Source: Candidatus Cybelea sp.
GTDB taxonomy: Bacteria; Vulcanimicrobiota; Vulcanimicrobiia; Vulcanimicrobiales; Vulcanimicrobiaceae
Assembly: GCA_036489315.1 (NCBI GenBank)
Contig: DASXFZ010000006.1
Coordinates: 1-63,719, forward strand
Length of the DNA stretch: 63,719 nucleotides
Direction: 5' to 3'
Each line of letters begins with the position of its first letter. Positions within the stretch are counted from its first letter, which is position 1. The notes under the pieces were generated by a model. It was not told where the DNA came from and made no database searches. It saw only the letters and a list, made by a program, of their open reading frames with translations. Below, piece by piece: positions 31,490-50,000 of this stretch. The translations under genes and the position numbers were made by a program.

Positions 31490-33117
31490 ATGAAGGCGGC
31501 CGGCGCAATGCTGCTCGTTCTGAATTGCGCGCTTTCCGGCTGCGTCAAAAGCGGCAGCCTTTCTGAAGGGCGGCACTCCTGGACGCGCGCCGGCGTACTG
31601 CGCATCGCCCTGGCGGAGGAGCCCAAAACGCTCAATCCGCTGCTCTTCGGTACGACCGGCGAGGGTTTCGTCGAGCGGCTGATGTTCGAACCGCTGCTCT
31701 CGGCCGACCCGCGCGGCAACCTGGTGCCGATGCTCGCCGCTGCCGTCCCCACGCAAACCAATCGCGGCGTCAGCGCCGACGGGCTCACGATCACCTACCA
31801 TCTTCGCCGCGATGCGCGCTGGAGCGACGGCGTTCCGGTAACGGCTAACGACGTCAAGTTCAGCCGGAACGCGATTGAAAATCCGAACAACAACGTCGTC
31901 TCACGCCACGGGTACGACGACGTTGCGGCAATCGACACGCCCGACGCGAAGACCGTGACCGTGCATCTCAAAAAGCGCTTTCGCCCTTCGTCAACACCTT
32001 TTTCGCCGAAAGCGACCAGCCGTACGACGTGGTGCCGGCGCACGTTCTGGCGCGCGATCCGGATATCAACCGGATTCCGTTCAACGCCGCGCCCACGGTG
32101 AGCGACGGGCCCTTCCGCTTCGTCGCATGGCGGCGCGGCGACCGGATCGAGCTCGCCGCAAACCCCGGCTTCTTTCAAGGGAAACCCGCGCTGCAGCAAG
32201 TCGTCATCGACTTCGTTCCCAACGAAGATTCGGCGATCAACCTGCTGCGCACGCACGCGATCGACTACATCTTCCAGCCCTCGATCCAAACGTACCTGAC
32301 GCTGCGGACGCTCACCGATTCAAAGATCGTCTGGGTCAACGCCAACGGATTCGAGGGTGTGGAGTTCAACATGTCGCACTCCGTCCTCGCCGACGCGCGC
32401 GTGCGTCGCGCGATCGCCGCCGCCATCGACAAGGTCTCGCTCACGCAGCGGTTGACGTACGGGCAGACGACGGTTGCGACCGAGGATCTGCCGAACTGGA
32501 TTTGGGCATTCGATCCAAACGTGAAGTCGGTGCCCTACGATCCGGCGGCCGCAAAACGTCTGCTCGCGCAGGCGGGCTGGGTCGCCGGCCCTGATGGCGC
32601 GGTGCGCAGGAACGGGCAGCCGCTCGAACTGCTCTTCGTCACGGACAACGCGCTTGCGACGCACCGTTCCGAGGCGATTCTGATTCAAGCTGCGCTGCAA
32701 AAGATTGGGATCTCGCTCGAGGTCAAGTATTACCCGTTCGATATTCTGTACGCGCCGCAGGGAATGGGCGGCATCCAGCACGGCGGGAAGTTCGACATGC
32801 TCCTCTACTCCTGGTACTCAGGCATCGATCCCGACAACTCGTCGGAGCTGACCTGCGACAACTTTCCGCCGCACGGTTACAACGATCCGCGCTACTGCAG
32901 CGCAGCGATGGACGCCGCGCAGGCGCTGGCCCTATCGCACTACGATCAGGCGATGCGTACCGTGGCGTACTCGAGGATCGAGCATCTCCTCGCAATCGAC
33001 AATCCGATCCTCTTCTTCTGGTGGCAACGCCAACAAGAGGCGATCAGCGTCGACTTCCATGGATTTGCACCTAATCCAGTCAATGAAGCGTGGAACGCGT
33101 GGAAGTGGAGTATCTAA
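31490..33117 (+). pseudogene. ABC transporter substrate-binding lipoprotein (family 5, oligopeptide type), single-base frameshift
   Basis: Extracytoplasmic binding protein of the DppA/OppA class. AGGAAG precedes the ATG; the lipobox is LSGC. The first frame gives IALAEEPKTLNPLLFGTTGE, LVPMLAAAVP and YHLRRDARWSDGVPVTANDV, typical of family 5. At about 31981 a TTTT appears as TTT and the frame moves; the second frame continues FSPFVNTFFAESDQPYDVVP through VRRAIAAAIDKVSLTQRL to NEAWNAWKWSI. With one base restored it is 542 residues, normal. No permease or ATPase genes follow. The stop codon lies inside the inverted repeat of the structured element. Confidence 0.87.
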
Positions 33118-33268
33118 GCACCGCATCATCGCCCCGTTCCAACTCAGACACATTCGTCGGGCGACATCCATGTCGCCCTCCTATCGTCTGCCTCGCGCCT
33201 TCCGCATCCGGCTGCGGCGCTCGGTCAGACGGTCTTCGTCGGAACGGGGCGATGATGCGGTGCTTAGA
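33113..33268. repeat. Structured repeat unit, copy 1: conserved core in a 28-bp perfect locus-specific inverted repeat
   Basis: Inverted repeats at 33113-33140 and 33241-33268 are perfect over 28 bp (left end TCTAAGCACCGCATCATC). They enclose a 100-bp core running from GACACATTCGTCG to GGTCAGACGGTC. The left repeat contains the TAA stop of the binding-protein gene. The core holds an 8-bp hairpin (GGGCGACA-TCCA-TGTCGCCC) and a CGTCTG/CAGACG stem. The core returns at 48749-48844 inside different inverted repeats. Confidence 0.9.
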
Positions 33269-33336
33269 CACGGCCAAAAAAGAAATTACCGGCTAAGGAG
33301 CGCTGCAGCCGCGCTACTTCCGCGTCGGGGTACGGG

Positions 33337-33360
33337 GCTCGGTCAGACGGTCCTCGTTGG
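33337..33360. repeat. Partial third copy of the structured repeat core
   Basis: GCTCGGTCAGACGGTC matches the end of the core exactly for 16 bases and is followed by CTCGTTGG. The preceding CTTCCGCGTCGGGG resembles a decayed CTTCCGCATCCGGC of the core. No flanking inverted repeat or hairpin half is visible, so this is a remnant. Confidence 0.6.
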
Positions 33361-48715: not shown

Positions 48716-48877
48716 TCTAGGGTTTGAAGAAGCCCCACTAGTATTGGGCTCGGACACATTCGTCGAGCCACATCCATGTGGCTCTCCTATCGTCTGCCTC
48801 GCGCCTTCCGCATCCGGCTTCGGCACTCGGTCAGACGGTCCTCACCCAACAGTAGTGGGGCTTCTCCAAACCCTAGA
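48716..48877. repeat. Structured repeat unit, copy 2: conserved core in a 33-bp locus-specific inverted repeat
   Basis: Inverted repeats at 48716-48748 and 48845-48877 match at 30 of 33 positions (left end TCTAGGGTTTGAAGAAGCC) and share nothing with those of copy 1 except the terminal TCTA/TAGA. The core differs from copy 1 at 6 of 88 positions. Four of these form two compensatory pairs in the hairpin (here GAGCCACA-TCCA-TGTGGCTC). The right repeat contains the TAG stop of a duplicated gene tail. Confidence 0.9.
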
Positions 48878-49055
48878 CGTTTGCAACTCCGTCGGTGGCG
48901 ACCAGCGTGTCGTCGAGGGTGAGACCTCCCGCGACATCGTAGCTGCAGTCGACGAGGCTTCTTCAAACCCTAGATGTTTGCACCCCGTCGGTAGCGACGA
49001 GCGTGTCGTCGAGCGTGACGCCGCCCGCGACGTCGTAGTCGCGGCCGACGACGGT
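48860..49055 (-). repeat. Diverged tandem duplication of the nucleotidyltransferase gene end
   Basis: About 98 bp (48958-49055), covering the last codons and stop of the 48963-50000 gene plus GCTTCTTCAAACCCTAGA, is repeated at 48860-48957 at roughly 80% identity. The outer copy still reads LTLDDTLVATDGVANV followed by TAG in frame. The structured repeat starts exactly at that outer stop. Confidence 0.75.
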
Positions 49056-50000
49056 GTCGCGCAGCGTTGCGCCGGGACCGATCGTTGAATCCTGCCAGAC
49101 GATGCTGCGCTCGAGCAGCGCGCCCGAGCGAACGCAGACGCCGTCGTCGAGGACGCTCGGGCCGACGATCGCGGCTCCGTCCTCGATGCGTACCGCGGCA
49201 CCAATACGAACCGGCCCTTCGATGCGCACGTCGCTGCCCAGCTTTGCCGACGCGTCGATGCCGTCGGCTCGCGTCTGGGGGATGCGAACGACGCCGCGAA
49301 TCACGTCGTAGCTCGCCCGCCGGTACTCCGACGGCGTGCCGATGTCCGACCAGTAAGCGCCCTGGGCGTCGAAGCCATAGAACGCTTCGCCCGCGCTCTG
49401 CAGCGCGGGGAAGACCTGCTTGCCGAAGTCGTAAAACTCGTCTGCCGGAATCCGGTTGAAGATCTCCGGCGAGAAAAAGTAGACGCCGGTGTTTGCGAGC
49501 TTACTGCGCTCCGTGCCTTTTGCGGGTTTCTCCTGAAAGCCGACGATCTTTCCTCGATCGCCCAGCACGACCACACCGTACTGATCGACCTCCTCGCACT
49601 CAACCAAACCGATCGTCGCAATTGCCTCGCGGTCGCGATGAAAGGCGAGCACCTTGTCGAGCGGTATGTCGGTGACTTCGTCGCAGCCGATTACGAGAAA
49701 CGGCCCGTCGTCGAAGAACGACTCGACCTTCTTCAGCCCGCCCGCGCTCCCGAGCAACTCCGGTTCGTACGAGTACTGCAAACGCACGCCGTACTCCGAT
49801 CCGTCGCCGAGCGTTTGGGCGATCGCATCGGCGAGATAGTGAGTGTTGATCACGATCTCGTCGAAGCCGAACGCCTTCAAGTAGCGCATCAGGTGGATCG
49901 CGTTGGGAACTCCCGCGACCGGCACGAGCGGCTTGGGGACAGATTTAGTCAGCGGGTAGAGCCTCGTCGAGAGGCCGCCCGCCAAGATCATCGCTTTCAC
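48963..50000 (-). CDS. NDP-sugar pyrophosphorylase (nucleotidyltransferase plus left-handed beta-helix)
   Basis: 345 residues. The N-terminal nucleotidyltransferase has MKAMILAGGLSTRLYPLTKS (NTP loop with GGxxTRL) and PKPLVPVAGVP, FLVIGCDEVTDIPL, and NTGVYFFSPEIFNRIPADEF. From about residue 250 hexapeptide-type repeats follow (SDVRIEGPVRIGAAVRIEDG, TIGPGATLRDTVVGRDYDV). The group contains mannose-1-phosphate guanylyltransferases and glucose-1-phosphate transferases. It overlaps the WecG-type gene, which fits surface polysaccharide synthesis. The 3' end is tandemly duplicated downstream. Confidence 0.9.
   Translation of the reverse strand: MKAMILAGGLSTRLYPLTKSVPKPLVPVAGVPNAIHLMRYLKAFGFDEIVINTHYLADAIAQTLGDGSEYGVRLQYSYEPELLGSAGGLKKVESFFDDGPFLVIGCDEVTDIPLDKVLAFHRDREAIATIGLVECEEVDQYGVVVLGDRGKIVGFQEKPAKGTERSKLANTGVYFFSPEIFNRIPADEFYDFGKQVFPALQSAGEAFYGFDAQGAYWSDIGTPSEYRRASYDVIRGVVRIPQTRADGIDASAKLGSDVRIEGPVRIGAAVRIEDGAAIVGPSVLDDGVCVRSGALLERSIVWQDSTIGPGATLRDTVVGRDYDVAGGVTLDDTLVATDGVQTSRV

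Follow-up and report, generated by a model that had tools for sequence, protein, structure and literature searches.

The window analyzed here, a stretch of 63,719 nucleotides from Candidatus Cybelea sp., contains two copies of a structured repeat, each with a conserved core held between the arms of an inverted repeat. The core of copy 1 (33143 to 33237, minus strand) lies between a left arm at 33113 to 33140, which starts at the TAA stop codon of the gene to its left, and a right arm at 33241 to 33268, which is the inverted copy of the left arm. The two arms pair perfectly over 28 bp and fall within a 40-bp repeat of 90% complementarity. In copy 2, the core (48749 to 48843, minus strand) is bounded by 33-bp arms at 48716 to 48748 and 48845 to 48877 that have three mismatches, and the left arm is an inverted copy of the 3' end of the adjacent gene (48963 to 50000, minus strand). 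A third copy, decayed and partial, is found at 33308 to 33360 on the minus strand, oriented like copy 1; it corresponds to part of hairpin B (described below) and is 81% identical. Upstream of copy 1, a peptide-binding-protein-like gene is split into overlapping frames (31490 to 32101 and 32029 to 33117), which suggests a frameshift or an assembly error. The gene beside copy 2 is nucleotidyltransferase-like, and its tandemly duplicated 3' end (48886 to 49051, minus strand; 70-bp units at 48886 to 48955 and 48982 to 49051, 83% identical) directly adjoins the repeat. The duplication and copy 2 may have arisen in one event.

The initial annotation of this DNA had described compensatory hairpin changes between the two cores and an inverted repeat peculiar to each locus, and both observations were accurate. 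The cores are 92% identical across 95 bp, and on the strand read at the time the hairpin is GGGCGACA-TCCA-TGTCGCCC in copy 1 and GAGCCACA-TCCA-TGTGGCTC in copy 2. RNA folding z-scores against shuffled sequences were -12.6 for copy 1 and -10.6 and -13.9 for the two strands of copy 2; together with the number of cores in the genome and the covariation reported below, these values bear out the view that the structure is not due to chance. The annotation had also stated that each arm begins at a stop codon. This was correct for copy 1, in which TCTAA is a genuine, in-frame gene stop. In copy 2, by contrast, the reading frame of the neighboring gene does not run through the TAG of TCTAG. The true stop is a TGA eight bases further on (..VQTSRV*), so the arm contains the last codons of the gene as well as its stop.

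The genome to which the window belongs (G000; 3.09 Mb, 64 contigs) contains about 11 cores that are complete or almost so, along with two fragments. Three of its contigs (C13, C50, and C3) end within the core, which implies that copies are undercounted in assemblies. A covariance model search, which the initial annotation had proposed as a check, was performed with a model built from 22 copies and yielded matches with locus-unique flanks in the genome and its relatives. At an E value of 0.1, matches occurred in 44 of the 99 genomes of the family; at 0.01, they occurred in 42 of 149 Eremiobacterota genomes, including members of two further families. Copy number varies among relatives from 0 to 18 per genome, with 18 copies in G089. 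Apart from one titled only "bacterium," the named records in which a related core occurs are MAGs of Candidatus Eremiobacterota. Divergent subtypes share the same plan of a long, locus-unique stem with hairpins A and B.

Analysis of the 22 copies with RNAalifold gave a three-way junction composed of two hairpins on a closing stem. This stem is locus-unique and 25 to 50 bp long, with a median arm of 33 pairs, although the arm-length totals are approximate because of wrong arm calls at L133 and at a few contig-end copies (the "arm" of L075 is 105 nt). Among the 22 aligned copies, 93 cells were doubly changed compared with a shuffled mean of 33.7, a count above all 500 shuffles and every slid control. 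The 110 model-aligned copies contained 1,220 such cells (shuffled mean, 344.8) and both-side changes in 36 of 37 pairs, values from an alignment that was fitted to the model and leans toward it. Read on the reverse of the strand used initially, both hairpin loops are usually ANGGA or ANGGAN (for example, CACGGAUG, CAGGAUG, and CAUGGAUG), and a simple scan detected two GGA hairpins in 117 of 136 copies. In copy 1, hairpin A (33159 to 33178) reads GGGCGACA TGGA TGTCGCCC on the minus strand, giving an AUGGAU loop, and hairpin B (33185 to 33231, minus strand) has a loop with GGA and a G-A/A-G internal loop.

We counted G-U and A-C mismatches in arm alignments that scored these two transition mismatches equally. 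On the AYGGAY strand, the stems contained 267 G-U and 79 A-C mismatches. In successive 8-bp bins from the junction, the G-U:A-C counts were 64:7, 85:10, and 47:16 in the inner three bins and 26:17, 27:21, and 15:6 in the next ones outward; the overall counts were 196:33 in roughly the first 24 bp from the junction and 72:46 beyond it. Counted per element, the ratio was 90:11 for the inner 24 bp and 30:13 farther out. A nonredundant set of 116 distinct inner arms gave 149:31 (73 elements in favor of this strand, 11 opposed). Model-based counts agreed for the stem (73:14) and were 7:1 for hairpin A (a sparse sample), and 14:25 for hairpin B. The restriction of the G-U excess to the inner stem points to selection at the RNA level there. 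A strand bias in mutation could contribute to this asymmetry; it would not by itself explain the drop with distance. These comparisons suggest that the functional RNA is on the AYGGAY strand, which is the minus strand in the window and the opposite of the one considered initially. About 24 bp of the inner stem appear to be maintained at the RNA level on this strand, with the remainder nearly neutral.

The initial annotation had recognized no described family, a conclusion that did not stand: the nearest relative is TwoAYGGAY RNA (Rfam RF01731; Weinberg et al. 2010, PMC2864571), and the resemblance is to the reverse of the strand read then. Rfam models at gathering scores detected only tRNAs in the window, and the link surfaced only in E-value mode, on divergent copies. 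The RF01731 model covers one family member end to end with a score of 34.4 bits (cutoff, 43). Across 99 genomes it matched twelve places, one of them in G109 at 43.6 bits (gathering score, 43) and the other eleven at 26 to 35 bits, scores to be read with the fact that long stems by themselves raise hairpin-model scores (MIR918 scored too). Several of these places coincide with covariance model matches and lie on the AYGGAY strand; copies from the window's genome are not among the twelve. As in TwoAYGGAY RNA, two hairpins with AYGGAY-type loops are set on an external stem on the same strand, though the loops here are broader (ANGGAN). The external stem of TwoAYGGAY RNA is not well conserved (PMC4333381), and the outer arms of our element likewise have near-chance identity between loci. 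The differences are that most copies here score below the cutoff, that there are many copies per genome, and that the stem is locus specific and partly copied from the flank. Moreover, TwoAYGGAY RNA was described from the human gut, gamma-Proteobacteria, and Clostridiales, whereas the copies reported here are from G+C-rich Eremiobacterota. Given its shape and loops, and scores that mostly fall short, we regard the element as a putative distant variant of the TwoAYGGAY type.

Binding of CsrA has been proposed for TwoAYGGAY RNA (PMC4333381), and the copies might accordingly be CsrA sites or sponges with a host function, their arms shaped by pairing selection and ordinary mutation. The presence of two GGA-loop hairpins in most units fits this reading, as does the detection of csrA in 81 of the 99 family genomes, including that of the window. 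GGA in hairpin loops, more than once per RNA, is also a trait of CsrA-binding RNAs of the CsrB/RsmZ type, which differ in lacking the three-way junction on a 25- to 50-bp stem and the dispersed repetition. Unlike those RNAs, our element showed no association with csrA in the genomes compared: at a completeness of 90% or more, 25 of the 49 genomes that have csrA contained copies, as did 2 of the 6 that lack it (Fisher's P = 0.67), and two genomes of one genus (G026 and G077) carry a copy with csrA not detected. One orthologous copy, in G099, lacks hairpin A entirely, and the range of 0 to 18 copies among relatives also argues against a host function of this kind. We consider this reading possible rather than probable. 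It concerns function and is compatible with the explanation we prefer below; the two can be true together.

The history of individual sites was accessible through orthologous empty sites in relatives, a comparison that the initial annotation had called for. These sites are hairpin-free spacers of 3 to 64 bp. A first set of relatives gave spacers of 12 to 64 bp, and more closely related pairs gave a sharper picture. At L030, only 3 bp separate the convergent stop codons of the empty site (G003). In the filled site (G009), the end of the insert, GGCTACTTCTTGC, is the end of the left gene in inverted form, and the insert is joined at a GC common to the target. At L040, the spacer of G014 (ACCAGTCTCG..) recurs in G009 as the right arm and, in inverted form, as the left arm. 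The original side thus differs between L030 (left) and L040 (right), and the strand polarity was not uniform. The arms at L041 and at copy 2 in the window repeat codons of the adjacent gene. Inverted copying of an adjacent gene end or spacer into an arm was seen directly at only four loci, the spacers at other loci being too diverged to distinguish local from imported DNA. At L147, arms of 49 bp occupy a site at which relatives have spacers of 13 to 20 bp, and part of an arm may therefore arrive with the element. Site comparisons thus show, at the level of sequence, that the element was gained together with its arms in hairpin-free spacers and that neighboring gene ends or spacer are present in the arms as inverted copies. 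The suggestion that placement copies neighboring DNA in inverted form is upheld to this extent: the arms are at least partly inverted copies of the flank.

An alternative is that the arms are kept purely by selection for RNA pairing, with long stems built through many compensatory changes and no inverted copying. The massive covariation and the strong one-strand excess of G-U over A-C in the inner stem are what this alternative predicts. The outer stem, however, is long and well paired even though the type of wobble there is nearly neutral (72:46), the arms at L030, L041, and copy 2 carry inverted codons of adjacent genes, and related empty sites are wholly stemless. L030 and L040 are also close to being filled/empty pairs at strain level in which the copied flank is directly visible. 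We therefore judge the alternative unlikely. The best reading of the arms is that the inner part is a selected RNA stem and the outer part an extension made by DNA copying. Among copies of one genome, inner-arm identity is 0.52 to 0.54, compared with 0.30, near chance, for the outer arms.

Orthologous sites also record changes after insertion. In the atpG-atpD spacer of one genus (names assigned from translated ends), G097, G098, and G101 contain the element, G096 and G100 are empty, and G099 has lost hairpin A with the stem retained. In G095, the core and inner arms are inverted relative to those in G097, G098, and G101, so that alignment of this spacer shows core inversion at an orthologous site. 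In a separate case, L097 (G007:C65:27439-27585), a divergent element occupies the same spacer as the G000 copy L002, after a DnaB-like gene, and other species are empty there; this is repeated use of one site.

Among 135 copies, with gene context based on a codon-usage score rather than annotation, 47 had convergent neighbors, 41 had both neighbors on the same strand, and 4 had divergent neighbors; the others had no clear gene on at least one side. Gene stops fell mostly within approximately -20 to +20 nt of the outer end of the arm, and gene ends were inside an arm in 61 of 159 cases. The stops thus cluster near the outer end, as the initial annotation implied, but their position is not fixed, and the stop-codon start is a tendency expected from short spacers, not a rule. 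At sites with a single gene end, the AYGGAY strand was antisense to the adjoining gene end in 46 cases and sense in 19 (P = 0.001).

The preponderance of convergent over divergent neighbors (47 versus 4 of 135) is the point in favor of a model in which the core was inserted into the loop of preexisting bidirectional terminators, whose hairpins became the arms. The empty sites speak against it, since they are short and hairpin-free and none had the same 30-bp hairpin. The arms contain coding sequence, and U-tracts after the stem were about as few as expected on each strand (2 and 2 observed; 1.4 and 2.2 expected). We consider this model exceedingly unlikely. The same U-tract result, and copies that persist between atpG and atpD within the ATP synthase operon, argue against a terminator role there; we rejected the terminator reading, and the suggestion of a gene-end processing or termination device was not supported.

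The element does lack fixed ends and lie at gene 3' ends, as had been proposed, and it has many copies. In being short, intergenic, biased to gene ends, foldable, and multicopy, it resembles REP/REPIN, MITEs, and ERIC (e.g., PMC2267715). Those repeats have conserved ends or arms. The conserved terminal inverted repeats typical of MITEs are absent here, the ends being unique to each locus, and copy-rich genomes have no RAYT. A conventional nonautonomous transposon, whether a REP/REPIN mobilized by a RAYT (Y1) transposase or a retroelement dependent on a reverse transcriptase, would account for the dispersal of the copies and for the opposite-orientation pairs seen in about ten places. It would not account for the lack of fixed ends; in addition, no target duplication of fixed length was evident in the empty/filled comparisons, in which diverged spacers preclude a clean test. 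Searches for Y1_Tnp and RVT_1 found no match in G000, G089 (18 copies), G007, G013, G060, or G103. Because both enzymes are absent from G000 and the copy-rich genomes, we rejected the RAYT and reverse transcriptase readings, group II introns and retrons among the latter, and hold a conventional transposon to be very improbable. A phage or plasmid source was likewise rejected: blastn gave no match, and neither did a search of viral contigs with one exact pattern.

The explanation that we favor, and consider reasonably probable, is that the element is a dispersed, noncoding RNA repeat of the TwoAYGGAY type whose arms are both generated and repaired through fold-back template switching. The unit that spreads would be the core with a short inner stem (about 14 to 24 bp), landing in a spacer. 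After folding back at the stem, a 3' end would extend on the opposite arm and copy the flank outward, so that each copy would acquire a stem of local DNA. The arms would subsequently stay alike through template switching between them, which would also occasionally flip the core. Placement at gene ends would be a consequence of tolerance there. The RNA most likely binds a protein via its two GGA loops, and a CsrA-type dimer is the leading predicted candidate. Template switching has been put forward as the origin of perfect stems in RNAs (PMC8794818), and between inverted repeats it is reported to homogenize arms and invert spacers (PMC8604942). The inverse copying of the flank, the similarity of the arms, and the inverted core match these template-switch hairpins and quasipalindrome corrections. 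Those studies concern stems of RNA genes and yeast genes, whereas in the present case the copying accompanies a repeated RNA core of about 95 nt. More tentatively, the element could be a mobile structured RNA, or a single-stranded DNA form of it, that has no fixed ends and builds its closing stem by fold-back copying of the target. In that speculative mobile-element version, it would spread with no known transposase or reverse transcriptase and would represent a class defined by structure alone.

Overall, the initial annotation was partly supported, and the element is best filed as a real, unusual repeat family, a variant TwoAYGGAY-type RNA whose closing stem is partly local DNA. To our knowledge, no function has been demonstrated for TwoAYGGAY RNA since its description in 2010. 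A similar RNA that is a phylum-wide dispersed repeat, with more than 100 copies, reveals strand, fold, site choice, and history. The copies also amount to a naturally preserved history of how template switching acts on a bacterial RNA locus, covering stem growth, arm repair, and core inversion, and a repeat family without fixed ends raises the question of its mode of spread.

Two further observations concern the arrangement of copies. Ten places have two oppositely oriented elements (L112, L070, L150, L144, L081, L129, L161, L118, L168, and L180), always with the AYGGAY strands outward; L066 is the one tandem exception. A second palindromic repeat family, of the GTGTCATCCTGAGCG..GAAGGATGACAC type, occurs near the element in L055, L049, L032, L048, and L219, and in L055 and L049 it is located inside the element's hairpins.
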